From the IMG/VR virus record IMGVR_UViG_3300050821_003894, positions 1 to 22,717 of that record: a DNA stretch of 22,717 nucleotides, one strand, 5' to 3'. The translations under genes were made by a program, and so were the position numbers. Positions 2,951 through 21,092 of this stretch are shown piece by piece. The stretch comes from a virus. The notes below the pieces were generated by a model. That model saw only the letters and a program-made list of their open reading frames with translations, was not told the DNA's origin and did not search any database. The stretch's first letter is position 1; every line of letters starts with the position of its first letter.

Positions 2951-3514
2951 TTACATCCAGTAAAGATTGATTGTCGCGCTCTGTCCTGGACTTGCCGAGC
3001 CAACCTGCGTACAGACTGCCCTAAATAGGTCTCCGGCGACAACGGTGGTTGCAGCAAATCCAGCTCCAGAGTGAAGTGCAGTTGAGCCGTTGGGAATATG
3101 GATCAGAGTACTTGAAAAAATGCTCGTTCCGTTTTGAAATATGTCAAAAATAAGATCAGCGCCGAGCGGAGCGGTTTGAGCGATTGCATCCCACCCAAAA
3201 AGAGTTCCTGGAATTTTCGCGATGAAGAGGTTAGTATCGCTGGCCTGAATGATATCGGCGCGGTCTCCGTGTATGCCGCGCCCGAACACGAATGTTGACA
3301 GAAGTGAAGCAGCTCCGACGCTTGGCGCTGGGGGGGTGACGACAATTCCATGCAGCGCTCGATTCAGAGAATCGAAATTATCCTGCATGGTCTCCAGCGC
3401 GGTCGCTACATCATTCGGCAGATTCGTGGCCTTTAGTCCACCGTTGCGAATTCGGTTGGTGAGGTGCTTTATTGCACTCCAGCCGACCGAAGGAATACTA
3501 ACAGAGGTGCTCAT
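2951..3514 (-). CDS. Virion beta protein (fibre or tail accessory), 187 aa
   Basis: The start is set at ATG 3514 because it forms an ATGA overlap with the stop of the nozzle-like gene, the arrangement used repeatedly here. A GTG five codons further up is less likely. Residues 1-60 look helical and contain a conserved-looking LETMQDNFDSLNRAL segment. After a Pro-rich hinge (VVTPPAPSV), the C-terminal domain has the phage beta-domain pattern ADLIFDIFQNGTSIF, then IHIPNGST, then AGDLFRAVCTQVGSASPG. I have seen this pattern in small fibre-like phage proteins. Spacing to the next gene is 3 nt. A head- or tail-attached decoration or fibre role is inferred from fold pattern and context. Confidence 0.75.
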   Translation of the reverse strand: MSTSVSIPSVGWSAIKHLTNRIRNGGLKATNLPNDVATALETMQDNFDSLNRALHGIVVTPPAPSVGAASLLSTFVFGRGIHGDRADIIQASDTNLFIAKIPGTLFGWDAIAQTAPLGADLIFDIFQNGTSIFSSTLIHIPNGSTALHSGAGFAATTVVAGDLFRAVCTQVGSASPGQSATINLYWM

Positions 3515-5529
3515 CGACGCACCGCCCACTCGTAAAACCTTTGGCGCAATCCAGCCAGAATCAAGTAGTCTCCTGGATTAATCCCACTCGCGAACCGCGT
3601 CGAACATCGCTCCGAGGTGATGTAGAATTGGCGGAAATAATCCTGCCCTGGCGTTGTGCTCAATTGGATCGCCTTGCTCCACCTCGCGCTCACCACGCGA
3701 TCAACGCCGTAGGATGTGACAACAGGCACGCCCGAACCGCGAGCGCGAACGTAAGCGCCTACGTGAGCCATGACGCGCCCGACTTGCCCCTGCGGGAGTG
3801 GTGCGCTTTCCCATTGGAAGTTGATTGCTGCTTGGTTCGGCGCACCTCCCGGCTTGTAATCGTAAGGCCATGCTGCACCGTCGTCAGTTGGATTTTTCTG
3901 TCGAACGACCGGCCCAGCCGTCCCATCACTCATCAAAAACTCGATGCGCTTAGTGGTGTCGTTTTGGTAGGCCACCAAGCCGCGCGGCGTCATGCCTGTA
4001 TTGGCGATATCCCACAGTGAGTAGCGGATGCTCTGATAATCAACGCCGTCCGTGTAGTCGAACATCATCAGGTGCGACGGTGTTGTCGCGCCGTCAAGCG
4101 GGACAGCAACGAGCAATTCCTTTTCATCCTTGTTGTCTGAAAGTCTGATCGTTTGCGCCGCTGCCCAATTGATTCTCCGCCAATCGGAGTCAACCATGAA
4201 GGTCAATGGCGGGTCCTGATATTGACCAGTGAAGATGTAGAGCCCCGTCACGTGAACGACCGCAGCCCAGCCGCCCGCCGCGTTTACGGTGGTGCCGAGA
4301 TTACACGGAGTTCCAAGTTTACCGTCTACGAGCTGCGCTGCTGCCCATGTCGTTGGTTCCTGCGTGTTGTCTTGATATGCCCATGTCCAGTGAGGTCCGA
4401 GGATGTAAAGAATCCCACCGAGGACAAAGCCGTTGCAAATCTGGAGGAAACCGGGGAGGTTCAATTCCCCGAACGCGGCGGAGATTTGCTGCGGGTTCGA
4501 TAGTTCGCTGATAAAGATTGCAGGTTTGCCGCTCCCTGAAATTGCGAGATACACCGTTCGCTGCCCGTAGATCAACACGCAGAATGGATTGAATGGCCCG
4601 TTGCCGAGGTCATCCTGCGTCAGGAGGAATTGGTTGTTTGTGACATCCGTTCCGAGTTCCAATTGCTGATCGGAGATGTTGATTGCGAAACTCACCGGCG
4701 TCGAAGTTCCGGGCAGCACGGCTAAGTCGAGTCCCGGAACGATGAAGTATTGAAACGGATTCGTGACCGCCGCCATCACAATCTGCACGCCCGATGCATC
4801 GGCAGGCCAAACGGTAGTCGGAGTCAGCGTGCCGCCAATCTGCTGCCCTCCGGGAGCTGTAATAGCTGAGGTCTGATCTGGTGTGTTTGTTCCGCTAAAT
4901 ACCGGGCATATCGGACCAGTGAATCCGGTTCGCGAGGTGATGACGTAGCCAACGAAGTGCGAACCTGCCGTGACGACGCCAACACCTGTGTTGTTCAGGA
5001 CTGGCTTCGCAGTCAGCGGCCCTTCAAACGCTGTATCGACGGCTACGGTGAAACTGTAGATGCCGACGACGCGGCACTGTGCAGCGCCCGCACCGGATAA
5101 TGTGAAACTGGCGACGAATAGGAAGTTGCCGCCCGACGCGCATGATAAACCCTCCGCTGCAACCGTAAACAGATCAGTGAGCACCGGCGTGGTGAGATTG
5201 ACCACCCATTGCGCCTTGCCTGCCGTGGCATTGTAAACCGCGAGATAATTTCCGTTCGTGGAAACCGAATCTGGCACCTTGACCCAGTTGAACAGCGTTG
5301 TGAGAACCGCACTAGGATTCCACAGAAGTCCGAAGCCATTTCGCGTCATGACCTCTTGCGGGTTGTATTCGGCGTTCAGTGATAGAAGGGCCTCAGATGC
5401 AGGGACATCTGACGAGTCGGGTCTTAACCAGGGGCCGCGAAAATCGGTTACTTCAGCGTCTTGTGTCTGAGCGGCTACTGGAAGGATTGCCACTATCGCA
5501 TTACTCCATTCGTAATATGTCCGTGCCAT
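3511..5529 (-). CDS. Large tail nozzle-like structural protein, 672 aa
   Basis: ATG 5529 is preferred over ATG 5535 because GGCGG lies 6 nt before it; the gene overlaps its upstream neighbour by about 37 nt. The N-terminal region contains ARTYYEWSNAIVAILP, then GPWLRPDSSDVPASEA, LSLNAEYNPQEVMTRNGFG. This is the 'asparagine, gap, R-x-GF' opening I associate with podoviral nozzle or tail-stabilisation proteins (P22 gp10 or T7 gp12 type). The rest is long, beta-rich and repetitive in blade-like units, consistent with a propeller or beta-barrel scaffold. Its length fits nozzle proteins of short-tailed phages. No enzymatic motif is seen. The family call rests on pattern memory and gene position after the adaptor; it could be another large tail beta protein. 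Confidence 0.65.
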   Translation of the reverse strand: MARTYYEWSNAIVAILPVAAQTQDAEVTDFRGPWLRPDSSDVPASEALLSLNAEYNPQEVMTRNGFGLLWNPSAVLTTLFNWVKVPDSVSTNGNYLAVYNATAGKAQWVVNLTTPVLTDLFTVAAEGLSCASGGNFLFVASFTLSGAGAAQCRVVGIYSFTVAVDTAFEGPLTAKPVLNNTGVGVVTAGSHFVGYVITSRTGFTGPICPVFSGTNTPDQTSAITAPGGQQIGGTLTPTTVWPADASGVQIVMAAVTNPFQYFIVPGLDLAVLPGTSTPVSFAINISDQQLELGTDVTNNQFLLTQDDLGNGPFNPFCVLIYGQRTVYLAISGSGKPAIFISELSNPQQISAAFGELNLPGFLQICNGFVLGGILYILGPHWTWAYQDNTQEPTTWAAAQLVDGKLGTPCNLGTTVNAAGGWAAVVHVTGLYIFTGQYQDPPLTFMVDSDWRRINWAAAQTIRLSDNKDEKELLVAVPLDGATTPSHLMMFDYTDGVDYQSIRYSLWDIANTGMTPRGLVAYQNDTTKRIEFLMSDGTAGPVVRQKNPTDDGAAWPYDYKPGGAPNQAAINFQWESAPLPQGQVGRVMAHVGAYVRARGSGVPVVTSYGVDRVVSARWSKAIQLSTTPGQDYFRQFYITSERCSTRFASGINPGDYLILAGLRQRFYEWAVRR

Positions 5530-5840
5530 CCACATCCGCCAGTCGGTTTTCCATTCTTAACGGCGATACAGTTGATTGATGGCGACAATGTTGGCCGCTC
5601 CATATTTCCGTCCCACTGCCAGATGCAGAGCGCATCAGGATTAGGCCGGTCCACAAACTTAGGCCCAAGTAGTACGGAGCATCTCTGTCCATTTGGACAC
5701 ACGAAAAGAATACTCGCCGTCGATCCTGGATAGCCCTGAACGCCATTCGTATGAATATCGAACGAACCAACGGGTTCATCCTTCGGCCATTCATCGCGCG
5801 GATCGCGTACCATGTTACCGGGAATTGGATTAGGCGTCAT
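5493..5840 (-). CDS. DUF6527-like small metal-binding protein, 115 aa
   Basis: Starts at ATG 5840, immediately after the T-tract of a terminator-like hairpin, with no good ribosome site nearby. The sequence has the layout I associate with DUF6527: a cysteine pair in FVCPNGQRC (C48, C54), then CIWQWDGN, the motif RPTLSPSI, then CGWHGHITNG near the C-terminus (C103, H106, H108). The Cys and His residues could hold a zinc ion; this is inference. The last codons overlap the start of the nozzle-like gene. Another open frame on the same strand (5501-5794) is a shadow. Function is unknown. Confidence 0.65.
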   Translation of the reverse strand: MTPNPIPGNMVRDPRDEWPKDEPVGSFDIHTNGVQGYPGSTASILFVCPNGQRCSVLLGPKFVDRPNPDALCIWQWDGNMERPTLSPSINCIAVKNGKPTGGCGWHGHITNGVMR

Positions 5841-5874
5841 CTAAAAATACCAGGGAGTTTTTGATCCTCCCCGG
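5841..5874 (-). terminator. Intrinsic terminator-like hairpin, minus strand
   Basis: On the minus strand an 8-bp stem (arms 5867-5874 and 5850-5857, one G-U pair, otherwise GC-rich) closes a 9-nt loop. It is followed at once by TATTTTTAG. This is the classical layout of a Rho-independent terminator. It lies 23 nt after the stop of the 98-residue gene, and the next gene's ATG abuts the T-tract. It could end most transcripts from upstream, act as an attenuator, or mark a processing site. No promoter was recognised downstream of it. Confidence 0.6.
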
Positions 5875-5897
5875 TTGACGGAGTATTGGAGGAAGAA

Positions 5898-6194
5898 TCA
5901 GACGCTGAAGTGAATCGGGGAAATCTTCAGATCGACGCTTTGAAATGCCCCTTCGTGAGGTTCGGTTGCGTGCTTTAAGCCAGCTCCCCATTTTCGATAT
6001 CCCATGCTGCCTGATGCACTGACTTGGACCGGTTTTTCAGGGTCGATGGTCGTAAGCGTTTGGGCGACAAGAGCACGCACATTTTGTACGGTCTCTTGCT
6101 CGCCCGGATCACTACAATTGATATTCGAGAACTGCTGTTCAAGCTGCCCAGCGATTTTTGACGACGGGCCGCATGCACTAACACTCCATGACAT
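5898..6194 (-). CDS. Conserved-looking phage protein of unknown function, 98 aa
   Basis: ATG 6194 is preceded by a strong ribosome site, AAAGGAG with 8 nt spacing. The product starts MSWSVSACGPSSKIAGQLEQ and has a helical region (residues 15-50, Glu/Gln-rich, ending ALVAQTL) followed by a beta stretch with VQVSASGSMGY. That helix then 'V-x-V-x-A-S-G-S' layout reminds me of a small hypothetical family in phage structural operons, but no function is known to me. It is the last gene before the terminator-like hairpin at 5841-5874. An overlapping 69-codon frame on the same strand is a shadow. Confidence 0.65.
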   Translation of the reverse strand: MSWSVSACGPSSKIAGQLEQQFSNINCSDPGEQETVQNVRALVAQTLTTIDPEKPVQVSASGSMGYRKWGAGLKHATEPHEGAFQSVDLKISPIHFSV

Positions 6195-6231
6195 AGCCTA
6201 TTCTCCTTTGTTGTGGTCTACGGTCTTACTT

Positions 6232-6777
6232 CTAATGAATTGATGGCTTGAACGGACCAGTCTCGGCTTCAGGAGCCGGAGTCTGAGCCGGCGCGGGCGG
6301 AAGTCCCGCGCTCGTCGCTCCAACCGGAGCGTGTTTCTTGGGTTGGTTCGTATTGAAATCCTTCCGCCACAGGTATTCTGCGGCCATCTCGACCGTGGTC
6401 TCATTCATGAACGCGAGAAATGCTTCGCGGTCGTATTTCTTCTCGCGCATTGATGGATGCTGCGCTGTCGTGCGAAGGCTGTCATGAAGTGAGTACGTCA
6501 CTGCCTTGATAGGTCCATTCGACTTGTCCCATTCGCTGCCGCGTTCGAAGCACTTCTCGAAAAAGTCTAACACTTCGTCTGGCGTGCTCAGTTCTTGAGC
6601 GGCCCGCACTGGCTTGTTGAATTTTCCGATGCCATCGACCGCAGCGGCGAAGCGCGGTACGTCGCTCAGTTGTTGGTTGACGCGGCCTACATAGTCCGAT
6701 TGCGTGTCGGCATCATATTCCGCGCTGACCGGCTTCGCTGGTTTGACTTCCTTGACTTCTTTGGTTTCTTTGTCCAT
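6232..6777 (-). CDS. Unknown phage protein, 181 aa, charged N-terminus and Pro/Ala-rich tail
   Basis: ATG 6777 has a good ribosome site (AAAGGAAAACACA before it). Residues 1-20 are Lys/Glu/Pro-rich (KETKEVKEVKPAKP). Residues 25-150 look helical, with aromatic and charged residues, e.g. VLDFFEKCFERGSEW, MNETTVEMAAEYLWRK. The last 30 residues are Pro/Ala-rich and likely disordered. No domain is recognised. It follows the three-repeat beta protein and precedes the 98-residue gene, within the same run of minus-strand virion genes, so a structural or assembly role is a guess from context only. Confidence 0.65.
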   Translation of the reverse strand: MDKETKEVKEVKPAKPVSAEYDADTQSDYVGRVNQQLSDVPRFAAAVDGIGKFNKPVRAAQELSTPDEVLDFFEKCFERGSEWDKSNGPIKAVTYSLHDSLRTTAQHPSMREKKYDREAFLAFMNETTVEMAAEYLWRKDFNTNQPKKHAPVGATSAGLPPAPAQTPAPEAETGPFKPSIH

Positions 6778-6809: not shown

Positions 6810-7619
6810 TTACATGGCGCGCAGGCGCGCGCTGAGTTGGAATCCGGCCAACGTACCGAGAGTGCCGCCGTTAAGCAATCCGAGACGATCGCCTGCGCGA
6901 AGGAAGCGCGTATGCAGCGCCGTGAGTGTGGCGAATACCGGCACATTGATAGTGCCGCTCGTTAAGAATCCGGTGCTCGAATTGTCCGTTTGAAGAATCG
7001 CTCCGGTGCTTGGCGTTTGAGTTCCGGTGTCAGCCGTCAATCCGACCACCGCGCCGCTTCCGCCGACCACGGACCATTTTCCGGCGAAGTCAAGCACTTC
7101 GTAGTCGCGATCCGCAATCCAGAACTCCTCATTCGTGCCAACGGTTGAGTTTTGCGAATTGTAGTCGATCTGAACTTCATTCGGATTGCCCGAGAAGGCC
7201 AATGTTACGCACACGCCAGCGATGGCCGTGGGCGTAGCCGAACCAGCTCGCAGCACGGAGATGCTGTCGGTTGCATTGAAACTAAGATTTGCTGCGGTGG
7301 CGGATAGAACGAACGGCGTGAACGTATTGGCCGTGCCCTTGAGCGTAAGCGCCGTTGCGACCGCCGTACCAGCTCCCGGTGCGGTCGCGCTCGCATCTTT
7401 CGTCAATCCGAGAGTGAGTGTTCCGGTGGCCGTCTCAGGTGTTGCCACCAACATCCCAGCGAACTTCAACGTGCGCGGGCGCATCGCCGTCATAAGTGAC
7501 AGCGTAGCAACCGAAGCCGCACCAGCCGCATAATAGCTGACGTAGTGGAATTTGGAACCGGGCATCAAGTACAGTGTGATTGTTGCGCCCACGAGCGTTG
7601 TGAGCGTACCGGCGAACAC
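6810..7619 (-). CDS. C-terminal part of three-repeat beta protein (269 aa from GTG)
   Basis: The only conventional start after the upstream amber codon is GTG 7619, with GGGAG about 14 nt away, which is long. The protein holds two full beta repeats. One is at about residues 45-145 (KFAGMLVATPETATGTLTLG, TKDASATAPGAGT, CVTLAFSG). The other is at about 165-269 (EEFWIADRDYEVLDFAGKW, FLRAGDRLGL, GTLGTLAGFQLSARL). The 'FW-x-ADRDY ... L-x-AGDRL-x-L ... GTL-x-x-LAG' pattern is one I recognise from small phage head or decoration proteins. The first 30 residues look like the end of a third repeat whose beginning is in the gene at 7704-8243, in the same frame. It may therefore be the distal part of one 477-residue product. 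Confidence 0.7.
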   Translation of the reverse strand: MFAGTLTTLVGATITLYLMPGSKFHYVSYYAAGAASVATLSLMTAMRPRTLKFAGMLVATPETATGTLTLGLTKDASATAPGAGTAVATALTLKGTANTFTPFVLSATAANLSFNATDSISVLRAGSATPTAIAGVCVTLAFSGNPNEVQIDYNSQNSTVGTNEEFWIADRDYEVLDFAGKWSVVGGSGAVVGLTADTGTQTPSTGAILQTDNSSTGFLTSGTINVPVFATLTALHTRFLRAGDRLGLLNGGTLGTLAGFQLSARLRAM

Positions 7620-7706
7620 GATGCTGAGTGAATCTCCCGGTTGGAGAACAATCAGCCCGGTGCCGGGGTTCGGAGCTGCAACGCTGATGCTGCGTGTGGC
7701 ACGCTA
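7620..7706 (-). other. In-frame amber codon and coding-like bridge between two ORFs
   Basis: The stop of the 179-residue gene is TAG at 7706-7704, followed by C. Reading straight on in the same frame gives 28 open codons up to GTG 7619 and then the 269-residue frame. The bridge reads as normal virion beta structure (SISVAAPNPGTGLIVLQPGD, then SLSI) and contains no ATG, GTG or TTG start. Its PGDSL-x-I-x-F-x-GTL pattern matches the end of the repeats downstream (AGDRLGL...GTLGTLAG). Readthrough, a nonsense mutation or an unusual start could each explain this. Confidence 0.6.
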
Positions 7707-8243
7707 ATAGTACGCTCCGAGTCCATAATTCGGTCCTTGGCCGGGAAGAACCGTCTCGGCAACCATGGTGTGCAGGTTAAATAGGTTTCCAGCGCCCATG
7801 ATATTCGCGCCGGTTCCCGGTGCCTGTTGCACTGTTCCTAGACCGGCAGGCGCTGTCTCATGCGAGATGTATGCGGTGGCTCCGGCGACGGTCCCCACGG
7901 TAGTGAGAACTGCATTCAGTCCGGTGATGGCAATTGCGCGATTCGTGGGATTCACGAAGAAGGTCTGCGTGACCATATTCGCGTTCGGATACAGATGGCA
8001 CGTTGCTGATTCGCGCACCGGATTCTGAACTGAGTTGAACTCGCGAAATTGATTGTCGGCGTCAAGTTCCCAAATGGGCCACTCGCTGCCGACTCCTGGG
8101 CTTGTGTTGTCGAGCGCCGTCAGTTGATATGTATTGCCGACGGACTGATCAATCCCGTCGATGCGAGTTCCACCCCACCATCTTGCTAGGTATGGTGCAT
8201 TTACGGCTGCTTGAATATTCTCGATGATTTTGTTGATGCTCAT
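7704..8243 (-). CDS. N-terminal part of three-repeat beta protein (179 aa, ends in amber)
   Basis: ATG 8243 follows AAAGGAAAG, about 11 nt away, just after a hairpin at 8267-8293. Residues 1-90 include MSINKIIENIQAAVNAPYLA (helix), ARWWGGTRIDGIDQSVG and a segment with WPIWELDADNQFREF. From residue 95 a beta domain begins (FFVNPTNRAIAITGLNAVL, TAPAGLGTVQQAPGTGA). It looks like the first half of the repeat seen twice in the downstream frame (FWIADRDYEVLDFAGKW). The gene stops at TAG 7706-7704 in mid-repeat. Other genes here end in TAG (capsid, 10530, 8326, 5493, 1021, 251), so TAG is a true stop in general. The role is likely head decoration or another virion part, from repeat type and position. 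Confidence 0.7.
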   Translation of the reverse strand: MSINKIIENIQAAVNAPYLARWWGGTRIDGIDQSVGNTYQLTALDNTSPGVGSEWPIWELDADNQFREFNSVQNPVRESATCHLYPNANMVTQTFFVNPTNRAIAITGLNAVLTTVGTVAGATAYISHETAPAGLGTVQQAPGTGANIMGAGNLFNLHTMVAETVLPGQGPNYGLGAYY

Positions 8244-8325: not shown

Positions 8326-8646
8326 CTAGCGATACGCCACGCAATTTATAAGAATGGTTCCTGAGTAAATCTGCCCGGAAGTACCCGTGAGCAACGCAAT
8401 GAGCGCGTAAGAATGCCCCACGGTCATCCCACTCACCAGCACTGTTGATGCCGCGCTGTTGGTTGTTGGGCTTCCCACGGTAGCCGAGGTTGGGTTGATG
8501 CTCCACGTTGCCGAAGCGATTGTATCGGCGTTCGACGGATCAATGACCGCTGTGTAATCCAGCGCTTCGGCTGGAGTCTGCCGCGTTCCGACAGGTCCCC
8601 CGACTGGGCTACCGCAATTGAAAGTTCGCTGGGCGGGAGCGCTCAT
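8326..8646 (-). CDS. Small Ig-like/beta virion protein, 106 aa
   Basis: Starts at ATG 8646, overlapping the upstream stop as ATGA. The N-terminal 25 residues are polar (MSAPAQRTFNCGSPVGGPVG). The rest has the pattern IASATWSINPTSATVGSPTT, then VLVSGMTVGHSYALIALLTG and SGQIYSGTILINC, which is the compact Ig-like beta domain often found as a small separate gene or repeat in phage structural operons. It lies between a secreted small protein and the three-repeat beta protein, and ends in TAG. A virion decoration role is inferred. An overlapping 88-codon frame (8240-8506) ends in an ATGA overlap with the next start but has no plausible protein composition. Confidence 0.7.
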   Translation of the reverse strand: MSAPAQRTFNCGSPVGGPVGTRQTPAEALDYTAVIDPSNADTIASATWSINPTSATVGSPTTNSAASTVLVSGMTVGHSYALIALLTGTSGQIYSGTILINCVAYR

Positions 8647-9095
8647 TGGCCGTTGTACATTGTCATCGTGTCAACGGTTGGCGGATACTGAACAGTATTG
8701 TAGGGGAAGTCGGAGAATTGGTGTGTGCTGTCCCACGTTCTGCCAACCCAAAAAAGCGGGTTTGTTTTCGGGATCACATCAGCCACGAAACCAACAGCAG
8801 GAACGGTGATAATCGGGAAGCACTTCAGCGTTCCAGGGTCCTGTGCATAGACTGCCACACCAGATGCTGGTGCTGTACAAGCGACGCCCTGGGGGCCGCT
8901 AGTGCTATGCGGAAGCATTGCCGCGAACGTGGTGGGGATATCCGGGCATGTAATTACCAGTGGCGTCCCAGCGCCCGTTTGCGTTCCGATAAGAGCGCAG
9001 TTTGAGGACGTTTGCGCCTGCGGGTGAACCGCCGTCCACGCAAACAATCCGACGATAAGAATGATAGAACTGATGATTCTGCTCATATGGTTCAT
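8643..9095 (-). CDS. Secreted or membrane-anchored phage protein with signal peptide, about 150 aa
   Basis: The start is uncertain: GTG 9116 (inside a hairpin loop), ATG 9095 and ATG 9086 are in frame and none has a clear ribosome site. I chose 9095, directly after the hairpin. The N-terminus MNHMSRIISSIILIVGLFAW is a typical Sec signal (Arg, then 13 hydrophobic residues) with a likely cleavage site after AVHPQAQ. The mature part has four cysteines (SSNCALIG, VITCPDIP, VACTAPAS, LKCFPI) that could pair as two disulfides, and a Trp/Tyr-rich C-terminus (WVGRTWDSTHQFSDFPYN). No family is recognised. An exported product inside a virion-gene block is unusual; a role in host envelope modification is only a guess. 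Confidence 0.65.
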   Translation of the reverse strand: MNHMSRIISSIILIVGLFAWTAVHPQAQTSSNCALIGTQTGAGTPLVITCPDIPTTFAAMLPHSTSGPQGVACTAPASGVAVYAQDPGTLKCFPIITVPAVGFVADVIPKTNPLFWVGRTWDSTHQFSDFPYNTVQYPPTVDTMTMYNGQ

Positions 9096-9132
9096 GCGTG
9101 CCGCCCACGCCGTCACGCCATGGGCGGCACGC
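9096..9132 (-). other. Perfect 12-bp hairpin between genes
   Basis: GCGTGCCGCCCA (9096-9107) is the exact reverse complement of 9121-9132, with a 13-nt loop. It fills almost the whole gap between the stop of the Ig-like gene (9142) and ATG 9095 of the signal-peptide gene. No T-run follows on the minus strand and only a weak one on the plus strand, so it is not a convincing terminator. It could hide or expose the downstream start, or serve as an RNase site or a protein-binding operator. Confidence 0.6.
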
Positions 9133-9141
9133 TGGCTCCTT

Positions 9142-9519
9142 TTACTGCGGCGTTCCGAAGGTGAATACCAGACTTGCGGCTGGCGGAGGCGGAGGCGGAG
9201 GTGCAGCCGTCAGAACGATAGTCGCCACGCCCTGAATCTGCTCGGTTGTTTTCCCGTCCGGTTCAGTCGCCATCGCCACTTCGGTCAGCGTGGCCGTGCC
9301 CGGAGCAACCGCCGTGATAATTGCCCTATTGGGCGTGCTTGGATCAACTGCGACCGTGAATACGGCTGGATCGGATGACGCATAGGATGTGCCGCTCAGT
9401 GTCGCTTGGCTTGGAATTGGATTCCCGTTGGCGTCAACCTGGGACGTGACTGGACTCCCGATGACCGATACCGTTGCTGGCTTGCCAGCGGCGTTCGTGG
9501 CTTGCATGGTGAATTGCAT
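9142..9519 (-). CDS. Big2-like Ig-domain protein, 125 aa
   Basis: ATG 9519 is chosen because of a near-ideal ribosome site (AAAGGAGATTTT before it). An upstream ATG at 9609 overlaps the adaptor stop as ATGA but would add a 30-residue His-rich leader. The domain has the bacterial Ig-like group 2 pattern: early beta strands (AGKPATVSVIGSPVTSQVD), then SGTSYASSDPAVFTV, then AIITAVAPGTATLTEVA near the end. A Pro run (APPPPPPPAAS) precedes a short beta tail. Such domains commonly decorate phage heads or tails and bind surface sugars weakly. It sits between the adaptor and a secreted protein. The GGCGGA-repeat DNA at 9180-9200 encodes the Pro run. Confidence 0.75.
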   Translation of the reverse strand: MQFTMQATNAAGKPATVSVIGSPVTSQVDANGNPIPSQATLSGTSYASSDPAVFTVAVDPSTPNRAIITAVAPGTATLTEVAMATEPDGKTTEQIQGVATIVLTAAPPPPPPPAASLVFTFGTPQ

Positions 9520-9605
9520 AAAATCTCCTTTAACCTTGATTCCTTGAAATAGAAATTCAAACTCTAAACTCGTGGCGTGGTGCCTGTGGTGATGGTGAAA
9601 CCATC

Positions 9606-10526
9606 TCATAGATAGGTCGGGAACTGCGGCCTGCGAGGTCTGTATGGCCGTGGCTTCATCGTCCTAGCATTTTTCTGGTGCATCATTGGAACAATCAGCG
9701 CCCGCAACATGCCGCCGCCGCCGTCCGCAATTCCACTGTCACCGTAGGCGTCCATGCGACACTGCGCACCTTGCGCGATTTGACGCTTCGGTGCGAAGTG
9801 CGCCGCCGTCGCGTTCTTTAAGAAATTCAGTTCGCGCCCGTTTGCGAATCCGATAATGCCAGACGGCGGAGGATCTTCGCCCGCGTAATATTCGATCCAC
9901 AATTGCCGCGCTTCAAGCGATCCCGGAAAGTACAGAATGTTGTCCTCGAAGTAGTACACCCCGAGCGCGATGTTTTGCGGATTTTGATTTGACGGAATCG
10001 TAGACACGAGTTTCATCGGAACGAAGTTATCGGCGCTGTACATTGCCGTCCCGCCAGTTCCATTCGCACCTGCCAGAATAGATCCGTTGAGCGTGAAGGC
10101 ATTCGGATTGAGAACCGTTATGTACCAGTCTCGATTCACCCACGCCGGGACACCGAGGATGCTGTTTAGTTCGACGCGCTGCCCGCTGTTAAATCCGTGC
10201 GCGGTTGCGTTTACCTGAATCGGCGTCCCGTCCGTTGTGGACTGTACGGCGATTGTGCTGCCGATGGATCGCTCCCACAATCGCGCCGGTTCATCGAAGT
10301 CCGTCACGCCTAATTGTTGATCGGGGAATAGCACGTTGGTGTTTGCGGGAAGCGTGTAGTAGACTTCCCGCTTGATCTGCTGGACTTGACACTTGATCGC
10401 GAGGTCAACCATTTCAGAGTACGCCGTGTTGAAATCGTCAATAATTTCTTGGCTAATCTCACCTGACGGGTCGCCAAGCAGCGACATCGCACCAGTCAAC
10501 ACGTCCTGAACTGAACAATCAGACAT
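9606..10526 (-). CDS. Head-to-tail adaptor with inserted FCCH-like module, 306 aa
   Basis: Starts at ATG 10526, 3 nt after the TAG of the zinc-ribbon gene, without its own ribosome site. The helical N-terminus (SCSVQD-like opening, IIDDFNTAYSEMVDLAIK) followed by REVYYTLPANTNVLFPDQ and VTDFDEPARLWERS is a pattern I know from podoviral head-tail adaptors; the D-F-x-E-P-x-x-LWER signature is the key. Residues about 95-165 look like an insertion of the FCCH-like beta module (VNATAHGFNSG, ending GANGTGGTAMYS). The core resumes with FVPMKLVSTIPSN and YFEDNILYFPG. The C-terminus is basic (KPRPYRPRRPQFP). It would bind under the portal ring. Family call by motif memory, supported by order: capsid, then adaptor, then nozzle. 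Confidence 0.75.
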   Translation of the reverse strand: MSDCSVQDVLTGAMSLLGDPSGEISQEIIDDFNTAYSEMVDLAIKCQVQQIKREVYYTLPANTNVLFPDQQLGVTDFDEPARLWERSIGSTIAVQSTTDGTPIQVNATAHGFNSGQRVELNSILGVPAWVNRDWYITVLNPNAFTLNGSILAGANGTGGTAMYSADNFVPMKLVSTIPSNQNPQNIALGVYYFEDNILYFPGSLEARQLWIEYYAGEDPPPSGIIGFANGRELNFLKNATAAHFAPKRQIAQGAQCRMDAYGDSGIADGGGGMLRALIVPMMHQKNARTMKPRPYRPRRPQFPTYL

Positions 10527-10529
10527 TGG

Positions 10530-11342
10530 CTAGGCCGCTGGCTTCGGCTGCTCCACTTTTGCTCCCGGCACGCGGGCCTTGGCCGCATCGAATGCGCTTT
10601 GATCCACGATGTTATTGCAGCTTGTGCATACGCTCTTTCCGGCAGGCACGCCCTTACCGCAGAAGGGGCACTCCGTATGCTTCCCGAATTGTGACTGCAT
10701 CATCCAGCGATGCTCCAGCGGGTTCGCCAGAATCCACGCCGCCGCGTTGCGGTGTTTTGATCCAACGTCGATAGCGGTGCGCGGGTTTGAGTCGAGTTGA
10801 TCGGCTTCGCGGACCTGAAGCTCGCACCATGCAAATTGCCGCCGTTTGTACATCTCGATTTCATGAGCGAATTTAGGGAACGTGTTCCGCAGCCGTTTTA
10901 GGTCGCTGTAGATTTCAACGAACTTAGCGTACTGCTCGGCGGTGCGCGGGCAATCCTCCGCTTCAGAAATCCACACAGCGGGCCGAATGTCCTGCGCTGA
11001 TGTGGGCGCTCCGCCGCATCCGCATGTCACGATGTCAACGGCAATTTGGCGAGCGGTCGTATTTTCCCATTTCGCGCTCCACTTCTTTCCGCCGTCATAG
11101 GTTTTTTCCATCGCATCCATGATGATCTTCAACCCCGGCGCGTCGTTCATGGTTCGCGCGCCCGCGATTTCGTACCACGTGACGAATGCGCCGTCGCGTT
11201 TTGTCTTGTACGGACGCCGCTCGCGGATGTCTTTGAAATGCAGGTTGACGACCGGAAGGGCTTGTCCTCTTTCAGCCGAAAACAATACATCAGCATCGCC
11301 AATGCTGGGCGATGAAACTGGGATCACAGCCGTGGTGCTCAT
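10530..11342 (-). CDS. Zinc-ribbon protein of unknown function, 270 aa
   Basis: The start is set at ATG 11342, which has an excellent ribosome site (AAAGGAG, 8 nt away); the open frame extends 25 codons further up without support. The bulk (residues 30-210) is a mixed fold with FKDIRERRPYKTKRDGAFV, WYEIAGARTMND and a conserved-looking EYKRR-type helix (HEIEMYKRRQFAWCELQVRE). Two cysteines in VTCGCGG (C107, C109) lie near the middle. Residues 225-242 form a textbook zinc ribbon, CPFCG, 10 residues, then CTSC. The tail is Pro/Lys/Ala-rich. It lies directly before the adaptor. It might be a head-completion or nucleic-acid-contact protein, but I do not recognise it. Confidence 0.72.
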   Translation of the reverse strand: MSTTAVIPVSSPSIGDADVLFSAERGQALPVVNLHFKDIRERRPYKTKRDGAFVTWYEIAGARTMNDAPGLKIIMDAMEKTYDGGKKWSAKWENTTARQIAVDIVTCGCGGAPTSAQDIRPAVWISEAEDCPRTAEQYAKFVEIYSDLKRLRNTFPKFAHEIEMYKRRQFAWCELQVREADQLDSNPRTAIDVGSKHRNAAAWILANPLEHRWMMQSQFGKHTECPFCGKGVPAGKSVCTSCNNIVDQSAFDAAKARVPGAKVEQPKPAA

Positions 11343-11358
11343 GAAAACTTCTCCTTTT

Positions 11359-11937
11359 TTATCTGTCGAATTTAGTTGCGGGAACGCTGTAGCCGCCGCC
11401 GCGCACGCCGGGGACATGACTTACAAGCGCGTCATCGAATATGTCGCTGATTCGCTGCTCTGATTTCTTCATCAGATGCTTGCGGTATTCCTGAATGAGC
11501 CGCAGGTGTTCGGTGTAACTCAATTTCTTCTGCCAGCCCATTTGTTCGGCCATCCGATACGTCAAATGCTCGGTGGGAACTTCACCCGGCACGAGCGGGA
11601 CGATTGAAAACCAATAGCCGTCTTTTTCTGGAAATCCGTGAAGCGTTCCGTAGACTCCCTGCCATTCTTGTTTCGGAGGAGAATCGTACCAGCCTGCGAG
11701 TACCCATCCGTCCTCATCGCGTTGTCTTTGCCATTCGCATTTCGGCTCATTCTCGATCACGATGAGGCCGCCCGGTGTTGTGGATTCTTTGGACTCCGTG
11801 CCGACGCGCACCAAGCACATTAGGTCTTTGGATTCCATCCAACGGAAGAGTGACTGTCCAGCCCATTTACCATAGGGAACCGCTCCCAGTCGATCATGAA
11901 AGATGCGGTTGAATTTCCTGAGGAGTTTATCGGTCAC
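11359..11937 (-). CDS. Unknown phage protein, 192 aa
   Basis: I choose GTG 11937, which overlaps the upstream TGA as GTGA and has GGAAGG 7 nt before it; ATG 11967 would overlap by 34 nt without a ribosome site. The N-terminus is basic (TDKLLRKFNRIFHDRLG). Then come a beta-rich region with LMCLVRVGTESKES and LIVIENEPKCEWQRQ, WYDSPPKQEWQGVYGTL, and a helical C-terminus (YTEHLRLIQEYRKHLMKK). Trp and Tyr content is high. No domain is recognised. It links the wall-enzyme pair to the zinc-ribbon and adaptor genes, so it may belong to either group. Confidence 0.7.
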   Translation of the reverse strand: MTDKLLRKFNRIFHDRLGAVPYGKWAGQSLFRWMESKDLMCLVRVGTESKESTTPGGLIVIENEPKCEWQRQRDEDGWVLAGWYDSPPKQEWQGVYGTLHGFPEKDGYWFSIVPLVPGEVPTEHLTYRMAEQMGWQKKLSYTEHLRLIQEYRKHLMKKSEQRISDIFDDALVSHVPGVRGGGYSVPATKFDR

Positions 11938-12462: not shown

Positions 12463-12852
12463 TTACTCCGTAACGGTCAATCTGTTTTCGCCCGCCGCCA
12501 CAAGCTCGGAGACTTTAGTTCGCACTGCTGGGCCTGCTACGATACACCCATCCGAACCTGAGTGGTTTGCCTCGGCATTGTCACCGTGAATAAAGAACCC
12601 GCTGCGGCCGTACATCTGATTGCTTGGATCAGGCGTTAGAGCCATCGCGCACGGTCCAAGGTGCGGAATCGTGTGTGCTGGCGAAATAGTGTACACGCCC
12701 TGTGGTAGCGGCCCGACCATCGGCACCATCTGATAATCAGGATTATCCACCGCATACGGTGCCGTCCCTGCATCTCCGCCAGAGTAGCATCCGTTGAGGA
12801 TTTCCCCGTCAGGTAGCGTAAACTGTGCGCGAGATTGTGAATAGGAGATCAT
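12463..12852 (-). CDS. Tlde1/DUF2778-type L,D-transpeptidase-fold enzyme, 129 aa
   Basis: Starts at ATG 12852, 6 nt after the stop of the two-helix membrane protein. The N-terminal half has the DUF2778 layout: GEILNGCYSGG, then VPMVGPLPQGVYTI, then GPCAMALTPDP. The catalytic segment is SGFFIHG followed by nine residues and SDGCIV, giving H89, S100 and C103. That is the HG...S-x-GC signature shared with YkuD enzymes and the T6SS effector Tlde1. Those enzymes cut or edit peptidoglycan tetrapeptides (L,D-carboxypeptidase and exchange activity). The protein is domain-only, with no signal peptide or wall-binding domain. Flanked by a small membrane protein and a papain-fold hydrolase, it is a candidate endolysin or wall-editing enzyme. 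Confidence 0.75.
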   Translation of the reverse strand: MISYSQSRAQFTLPDGEILNGCYSGGDAGTAPYAVDNPDYQMVPMVGPLPQGVYTISPAHTIPHLGPCAMALTPDPSNQMYGRSGFFIHGDNAEANHSGSDGCIVAGPAVRTKVSELVAAGENRLTVTE

Positions 12853-13132: not shown

Positions 13133-13831
13133 ATGCCTGAGAACATTATTACACCAGACGGATACATCAGCCACTATCCGCTCAAACCAATTCCATCCAT
13201 GAACCTGAAACAACTTTACCGCTACTTCGCGAAAGTTGACGAGCGTGGGGAGGATGAATGTTGGGAATGGAAGGCGTCGCGTACCGACGGCGGGTACGGC
13301 CAATACGGAATAAACGGTACGATGTATCTGGCCAATCGTATCGCTTACCGCTTGGGATACGACCAAGATCCAGCACCATTCGTTGTCATGCATGCGTGCG
13401 ACAACCCGCCGTGTTGCAATTGGCATCATCTCTCGCGTGGAACGCACATGGCGAACCATGAGTGGCGCAGAGGAGCGCCGGGAATGGCAATAGGAAAGGA
13501 TCACGGCATGGCGGAACTTACTGATGAGCAAGTTATAGAGATGAGAATAAAGCGCCAGAATCGTGCCACCTTGCGCGATCTTTCTGAGGAATACGAGATA
13601 TCGAAAGGGCAAGTCGCAAGGATTTGTCGCGGCGAGGCGTGGACGCACGTTGCAGGACCGCGAACCAGAGGTATTTGCGTTGGACTTGACAAGATGACGC
13701 CCGAACAGAGAACCGCAACCGTGCAGCTTCGCGCCGAAGGGTGGTCGCAGCAGAGGATTGCGGATCTGTTCGGTGTTAGTCAAACTCTTATCTCGGCACT
13801 ATTGCTTGGGAAGATTCACAAGAACAGTTAA
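13133..13831 (+). CDS. HNH homing endonuclease with two C-terminal HTH segments, 232 aa
   Basis: The only plus-strand gene; AAGGG lies 9 nt before the ATG. The endonuclease core (residues 40-112) has ECWEWKASRTDGGYGQYG, IAYRLG, and the His-Me finger VMHACDNPPCCNWHHLSRGT (H87, C89, C94, C95, H98, H99) followed by HMANHEW (N108), the zinc-bound HNH_3 layout. Residues 128-172 form a NUMOD-like helix-turn-helix (LTDEQVIEMR, LRDLSEEYEISKGQVARI). A second is at 188-227 (MTPEQRTATVQLRAEGWSQQ, FGVSQTLISALL). Free-standing homing nucleases cut alleles lacking the gene and spread by repair. It ends 12 nt from the stop of the convergent capsid gene. The 255-codon antisense frame over it is a shadow. Confidence 0.9.
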   Translation: MPENIITPDGYISHYPLKPIPSMNLKQLYRYFAKVDERGEDECWEWKASRTDGGYGQYGINGTMYLANRIAYRLGYDQDPAPFVVMHACDNPPCCNWHHLSRGTHMANHEWRRGAPGMAIGKDHGMAELTDEQVIEMRIKRQNRATLRDLSEEYEISKGQVARICRGEAWTHVAGPRTRGICVGLDKMTPEQRTATVQLRAEGWSQQRIADLFGVSQTLISALLLGKIHKNS

Positions 13832-19711: not shown

Positions 19712-20062
19712 TTAGCTCATGGTTTCTGGCGGTTGTCCTTCCGCTGGTTGATTTGATTCGTTCATCGCGCCGCTCACGGGTTCATGCTGCGAGCCTTTTT
19801 TATATTCACAGCAATAATCAGTGGCGTCAACAAAACTCCATTCACCACCCTTCGGAGGAAAGCGCAAGCATCGCCCGGTTGACGATTGAAAGGCATAGCA
19901 CGTCGCACACGATGCATCCTTATCGTCGCCCATCTGGTCATCATCGTCTGGTTCATCATGAATAGAACCTTCTGGTGAGTCGAGTGGTTCAGGCTCATCG
20001 TCTCCGCCTGCGGGATGCGCAACGATCAGAAGCGCGCCGTGTTTTGGTCCTCCGGGTGTCAT
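19712..20062 (-). CDS. Acidic protein with one HiPIP-like Cys module, 116 aa
   Basis: ATG 20062 overlaps the upstream TGA as ATGA. Residues 20-49 are strongly acidic (EPDDDDQMGDDKD). Then comes a cysteine module C52-x2-C55-x9-C65-x18-C84-C85: SCATCYAF, GRCLRFPPKGG, FVDATDYCCEY. The order CxxC, then C followed by F-P, then V-x3-x-Y-C-x2-Y resembles the core of high-potential iron-sulfur proteins (CxxCqF ... gC-x-x-FPg ... V-x3-GWC-x2-W). Spacing is nearly the same as in the second module of the protein at 20586-21092. The C-terminus is polar. A 4Fe-4S or zinc site is inferred; no signal peptide is present. Confidence 0.65.
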   Translation of the reverse strand: MTPGGPKHGALLIVAHPAGGDDEPEPLDSPEGSIHDEPDDDDQMGDDKDASCATCYAFQSSTGRCLRFPPKGGEWSFVDATDYCCEYKKGSQHEPVSGAMNESNQPAEGQPPETMS

Positions 20063-20589
20063 GCGCTCTCCTGTGGTTCGAATGTCCAGCGGTCAGGACC
20101 TATGCCTAGATCGCCGCTGCAGATGTTGGCTGCTCGGAACATGCGTGGATGATTACGCGCAATAAACGTAGGCCATAGATAACAGCTAGCCCAAGTCGGT
20201 TCTGGATCGCGTTCATCGATGATGTAACAGTCGTAATAAGGCAGCATACGCCCATCGCGGCTGTATACAGATAGAAAGATGTGTCCGTTGGGGAATTTGT
20301 GCAAGACCTCGTGTGGCTGAACTGTTTCAATGATTGCCTCGATTGCCGATGAGGTATTCGTTGCCGTTGCTACGTTTCCCAGTGGGATGCGGATACGTCG
20401 ATGTGAGAACTTAACTGGACGCTCAAGCGTTAGCAGCGCCAAGGTCATCGGATCAATCGGTGGATTGACGTATCGCGGCCAAGTAAAACTTTTCTTCGCT
20501 GCGAGTAGTCCACCAATCGCCGCAGGAATAGCAGCGAACATCGAGAATATCTTTCGACGTGAAATTATTGTATGCCTCAGTAGCGTCAT
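20059..20589 (-). CDS. Protein with twin-arginine-like N-terminus, 176 aa
   Basis: ATG 20589 overlaps the upstream TGA as ATGA, and the end overlaps the next ATG likewise. The N-terminus TIISRRKIFSMFAAIPAAIG, then GLLAAKKS, has SRRKIF before a weakly hydrophobic stretch. This is close to the Tat consensus S-R-R-x-F-L-K; it could equally be a simple membrane anchor. The mature part (residues 40-176) has ALLTLERPVKFSHRRIRIPL, IETVQPHEVLHKFPNGHIFL and PYYDCYIIDERDPEPTWASC, with no recognised fold. It sits between two HiPIP-like cysteine proteins; real HiPIPs are Tat-exported, so a shared exported complex is an attractive inference, not a proven one. Confidence 0.6.
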   Translation of the reverse strand: MTLLRHTIISRRKIFSMFAAIPAAIGGLLAAKKSFTWPRYVNPPIDPMTLALLTLERPVKFSHRRIRIPLGNVATATNTSSAIEAIIETVQPHEVLHKFPNGHIFLSVYSRDGRMLPYYDCYIIDERDPEPTWASCYLWPTFIARNHPRMFRAANICSGDLGIGPDRWTFEPQESA

Positions 20590-21092
20590 GTATTGATCCT
20601 TGCCGCCAGTCGCCGCGCAATATTCTGGCGACCATCTGGCGACGGAATAATGGGCTTGGAACTGATAACTTGAATCAGTTGCTCGTCTGACATTGTGGCT
20701 CTTCTTGAATCAGGCTCCCATAGTGAGCAGCAGGCGTTCTGCGCGATCACTCCGGGAGTGTCTCCATCCGAGTAGCGGTCCACTCGTTCGCAATCGTTTT
20801 TTCCGACTCCGAAATATTCACACCGCTTACAACTGAATCCCTGGGGATTTTCGTAATACCCCAGTTCTCCCTTTGTGAATAATCCAAGCCACGGAACATC
20901 AGGGTGCTTTTTAGGATCAGCGTGCGTGAAGTATCCACAACTCCCCGAGTTTGCATCGACCGATTCGGATGGCCCGAAGAAAGCGCACCCATTCCCCTTC
21001 GATCTGTCTTTCATGAACACGCAGATACCGCACGTGTAATTTGTCTCGGGACGAAATACGTAGAGCGCGGAGGCTTTGGGAATTTTGCTCAT
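20586..21092 (-). CDS. Protein with two HiPIP-like Cys modules, 168 aa
   Basis: ATG 21092 overlaps the terminase stop as ATGA. Module 1 is C21-x2-C24-x11-C36-x15-C52 (YTCGICVFMKD, NGCAFFGPSESVDA, GSCGYF). It closely follows the HiPIP layout CxxCxF ... GC-x-x-F-x-G ... V ... C-x2-F. Module 2 is C88-x2-C91-x9-C101-x19-C121-C122 (FSCKRCEYFG, NDCERVD, NACCSLWEP), with the extra Cys also seen in the 116-residue neighbour. Between them is WLGLFTKGELGYYENPQG. The C-terminal 40 residues are helical (MSDEQLIQVI, IARRLAARI). HiPIPs carry one 4Fe-4S cluster on four Cys; two tandem modules in one chain would be unusual. Zinc binding is the alternative. Confidence 0.7.
   Translation of the reverse strand: MSKIPKASALYVFRPETNYTCGICVFMKDRSKGNGCAFFGPSESVDANSGSCGYFTHADPKKHPDVPWLGLFTKGELGYYENPQGFSCKRCEYFGVGKNDCERVDRYSDGDTPGVIAQNACCSLWEPDSRRATMSDEQLIQVISSKPIIPSPDGRQNIARRLAARINT

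Follow-up and report, generated by a model that had tools for sequence, protein, structure and literature searches.

The minus strand of the 22,717-nucleotide stretch of viral DNA analyzed here (the window) carries two adjoining open reading frames that share one frame and are separated by a single TAG codon, which raises the question of whether they are two genes or one and, if one, why a stop codon stands in the middle of it. The 5′ part (7704..8243, minus strand) comprises 179 codons that begin at an ATG with AAGGA 11 nt upstream, and it encodes an N-terminal segment and the first half of a repeat before ending at the TAG of codon 180 (7704..7706, minus strand), which is followed by CGT. 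The 3′ part (6810..7703, minus strand) stays open for 297 more codons, up to a TAA at 6812-6810, and encodes the second half of repeat 1 together with repeats 2 and 3. The chance of a 297-codon open stretch is ~1.4e-4 in first-order Markov sequence with the composition of the window. Both this arrangement and the start-less 28 codons that the sequence-only reading had described after the TAG were confirmed from the sequence, as the earliest ATG, GTG, or TTG past the stop is the GTG at 7619, 28 codons downstream.

The protein, a two-row alignment, and alignments of the capsid, tail, terminase, and neighboring genes served as queries for relatives, and all viral scans led to the same IMG/VR contig, IMGVR_UViG_3300044908_000026 (68,029 bases), the sole match among 2.9 million viral contigs scanned. 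No relatives of the interrupted gene were found in the genome, phage, or plasmid collections, the last two searched by tblastn, and the collections searched contained no near-identical record. The homologue in the relative is one uninterrupted 464-codon open reading frame (locus L001:10001-11395) that aligns over its full length at 72% identity and has the same repeats, start, and neighborhood; unlike the window, it has no stop and carries CTG (Leu) opposite the TAG. Identity to the relative is 52% upstream of the TAG and 83% downstream. A full-length homologue in which position 180 is a sense codon, which had been named as the check for a single gene, is thus provided by one relative. Together with the downstream conservation, its single open reading frame bears out the view that this is one gene rather than two, a reading that is well supported by the sequence comparison, and the practical lesson is to annotate both predicted reading frames as a single, interrupted gene. 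The stop codon itself is not conserved, as the only relative found has CTG. A frameshift pair around the TAG was also considered and was rejected because the flanking residues Tyr179, Arg181, and Ala182 match the relative in frame on either side.

The encoded protein had been proposed to consist of three repeats, and alignments against shuffled sequences, as well as a shared C-terminal motif, support this proposal, although more weakly for the first repeat of the window. Repeat 1 (codons ~89-228; 7560..7979, minus strand) holds the TAG, repeat 2 spans codons 246-354 (7182..7508, minus strand), and repeat 3 spans codons 368-477 (6813..7142, minus strand), each being ~110-140 residues long. In the shuffled-alignment test, repeat 1 of the relative matched repeat 2 of the window with z 6.3 and repeat 3 of the relative with z 4.6, and repeat 2 of the window matched repeat 3 of the relative with z 4.4, whereas the window's own repeat 1 gave weaker values against the other repeats (z 1.8-2.5). 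The clearest common piece is GDSL...GTLTTLVG (codons 203-219), which corresponds to GDRL...GTLGTLAG (codons 451-467). The TAG sits between the two halves of repeat 1, so the stop does fall inside one domain, as had been suggested. The window's repeat 1 is less like the other repeats than is repeat 1 of the relative. The 30 codons leading up to the TAG (codons 151-180; 7704-7793, minus strand) form the fastest-evolving part of the gene, with a dN of 0.93 and a GPNYG insertion.

Searches of Pfam, PHROGs, and PDB sequences with the interrupted protein gave nothing significant. For the full-length protein of the relative, AlphaFold gave a model too poor to use (pLDDT 30), and a model of one repeat was all-beta at low confidence (pLDDT 57), eight strands being predicted in the low-confidence model of repeat 2; Foldseek returned no significant structural match to the single-repeat model. 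The protein is probably all-beta. The interrupted gene lies in the same block as the terminase and capsid-like genes, and this block and its neighbors suggest that the product is probably located in the virion. The best explanation of the source is an uncultured tailed phage, and that of the locus is an ancestral three-repeat gene.

Compared with the relative, the 3′ part has a dN of 0.137 and a dS of ~2 (near saturation), while the dN of six other tested genes lies between 0.31 and 0.60, making it the best conserved coding stretch compared. The extension is thus conserved as coding sequence, and with so low a dN at a near-saturated dS, its translation has lasted through almost the whole divergence from the relative. 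In neutral simulations, 0.08 substitutions per site produced 46 amino acid changes in the 3′ part, as against the 51 seen in both lineages combined, and 0.2 substitutions per site left a 2.5% chance of no further stop there. Since the simulated neutral changes approach the observed total, any loss of translation would be recent. Unless the extension is still produced, the stop is recent (or an error). The locus has an intact homologue, an otherwise open frame, and no sign of long decay, as expected of a gene interrupted by a nonsense codon, be it a mutation or an error.

As the probable origin of the TAG, we favor either a recent nonsense mutation or an error in the sequence over a dedicated readthrough switch. 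This explanation is preferred because the relative is intact, with CTG opposite the TAG and in-frame matches on both flanks, and because, among the 12 homologous genes compared, this gene alone stops early: it ends ~300 codons short, whereas all 11 others end within 17 residues of the relative's end. It is also preferred because the stop lies within a repeat domain and neither the 22.7 kb window (a fragment) nor the entire 68 kb contig of the relative yielded a tRNA gene. The ancestral state would have been a single gene giving, when intact, one 477-residue product; at codon 180, where the relative has Leu, this contig has TAG. A recent nonsense substitution may have occurred in the sequenced lineage or in a sub-population, and a TTG leucine codon would need a single base change to become TAG; alternatively, the TAG may be a wrong base introduced by the metagenome assembly. 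A real TAG would leave only a truncated 179-residue fragment, along with whatever background or suppressor readthrough the host may give. Several points weigh against a mutation or error: no other homologous gene in the contig is broken, which gives no hint of a high error rate; purifying selection on the 3′ part would be expected just as well if readthrough or suppression kept it translated; the predicted RNA fold past the TAG ranks in the lowest 2% of window positions; and the comparison is made with one relative.

It is unlikely that the TAG is instead a programmed readthrough site, kept by selection and passed by some of the ribosomes, so that a virion protein is made in a major short form and a minor long one. 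Such a site is consistent with the long conserved frame downstream, with the C directly after the TAG, and with a predicted RNA fold that begins inside the stop codon (7603..7705, minus strand; outer stem AGCGUGCC/GGUACGCU). The fold at the stop (107 nt) has z ~-2.6, and equally low values are reached at 3 of 227 window positions. However, among 25 ordinary stops in the window, one falls below this value (z -2.85) and another comes close to it (z -2.55), and the inner hairpin of the fold is also present in the relative, which has no stop there, implying that the hairpin follows from the coding sequence. The fold is only mildly unusual and is partly coding-derived. Moreover, codon conservation past the TAG, as a sign of synonymous constraint, was not significant (p 0.69 for any window, across the gene). 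The TAG followed by C, which the sequence-only reading regarded as a leaky context, is present, but it is not diagnostic, because the gene at 10530-11417 also has TAG followed by C and terminates normally, where the relative ends. Most tellingly, the mid-domain stop argues for one gene, yet against a useful short form: since the stop halves a repeat domain, the short form would end in half a repeat and have an incomplete fold, and a functional short product is not expected.

The suggested likeness to the coat and A1 proteins of Qbeta, with a short major and a long minor form, was not upheld, as the relative makes the long form only, the stop is mid-domain, and neither a convincing recoding element nor a suppressor tRNA was found. 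In Qbeta, a UGA after the complete coat protein is read as Trp by ~1 in 15 ribosomes, which thereby append a separate domain (PMC8067240). In both cases, the frame of a virion gene (a probable one here) stays open for a long stretch beyond a stop; however, the Qbeta UGA follows a complete coat protein, whereas the present TAG lies inside a domain and is absent from the relative. According to one paper (PMC8954436), natural readthrough in bacteria that have no suppressor tRNA inserts Gln at UAG, amounts to ~2% for UGA, and depends strongly on context, so background readthrough would be no evidence of design. Should the TAG prove fixed and read through, a tailed DNA phage would here be using stop readthrough to set how much of a virion protein is made, which would be unusual. 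The fuller picture, in which a tailed double-stranded DNA phage keeps an amber codon inside a beta repeat, readthrough yields a limited three-repeat form, and the fold at the stop acts as a stimulator, is doubtful and a shade less probable than programmed readthrough as such.

Decoding of a real TAG by an amber suppressor tRNA, supplied by the host or by the rest of the phage and giving mostly full-length protein, is more improbable again. The downstream frame is intact and conserved, and because the window is a fragment, a tRNA gene could lie elsewhere in the phage. Code-15 phages, which read TAG as Gln in late, structural genes (PMC9523058), provide a precedent, and the TAG here likewise lies within a probable structural gene. 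In contrast to those phages, only a single in-frame TAG was seen here, TAG is used as a true stop, and neither the window nor the 68 kb of the relative has yielded a suppressor tRNA. TAG ends eight predicted genes in the window, the interrupted gene included. The capsid gene ends exactly where that of the relative does (0 residues apart; TAG in the window, TGA in the relative), the gene at 10530-11417 ends 1 residue from the relative's end (TAG in the window, TAA in the relative), and the gene at 8326-8646 ends 15 residues from it (TAG in both). Elsewhere in this phage, TAG acts as a genuine stop, in agreement with the earlier view that its genome is not recoded throughout.

Two separately translated proteins that assemble together, the second starting at the in-frame GTG at 7619, 28 codons past the stop, or later, are very improbable: none of the first seven internal starts after the TAG has a Shine-Dalgarno-like site, a start at this GTG would lose the conserved codons 181-208, the relative has one open reading frame, and the two further same-frame gene pairs in the window (at the stops of 10530-11417 and 2951-3529) restart at the second codon past their stops, so that a gap such as the present one does not match this phage's usual layout of neighboring genes.

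In the relative, the homologous gene lies directly between the homologue of 9606-10526 (upstream) and that of 3511-5535 (downstream). The window has two blocks of three genes each, at 5493-6777 and 8326-9609, that flank the interrupted gene and are missing there in the relative; the homologue of 8326-8646 is found ~15 kb away in the relative, near 65.6-65.8 kb. A similar segment (...TPIQxxATAHGLxxG...NGxW...FTLNGS...) occurs in three different genes on the minus strand, at 9606-10526, 1484-2947, and 1021-1479, and PF16190 (E1_FCCH) is weakly matched in 9606-10526 and 1021-1479. The recurrence of this segment suggests a domain that may have spread through the virion genes.

Other genes of the window also deserve mention. 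By the terminase, 19712-20062 and 20586-21092 (minus strand) encode small cysteine-rich proteins with a spaced C-x-x-C ... C ... C pattern and no Pfam match. Just after the capsid gene and on the opposite strand, 13133-13831 (plus strand) has a weak HNH_3 match and a helix-turn-helix, and it may encode a mobile homing endonuclease. Among the structural genes, 12463-12852 (minus strand) encodes a Tlde1 / L,D-transpeptidase-like protein (PF10908, E 5.9e-12), which is possibly a peptidoglycan-modifying lysis protein.
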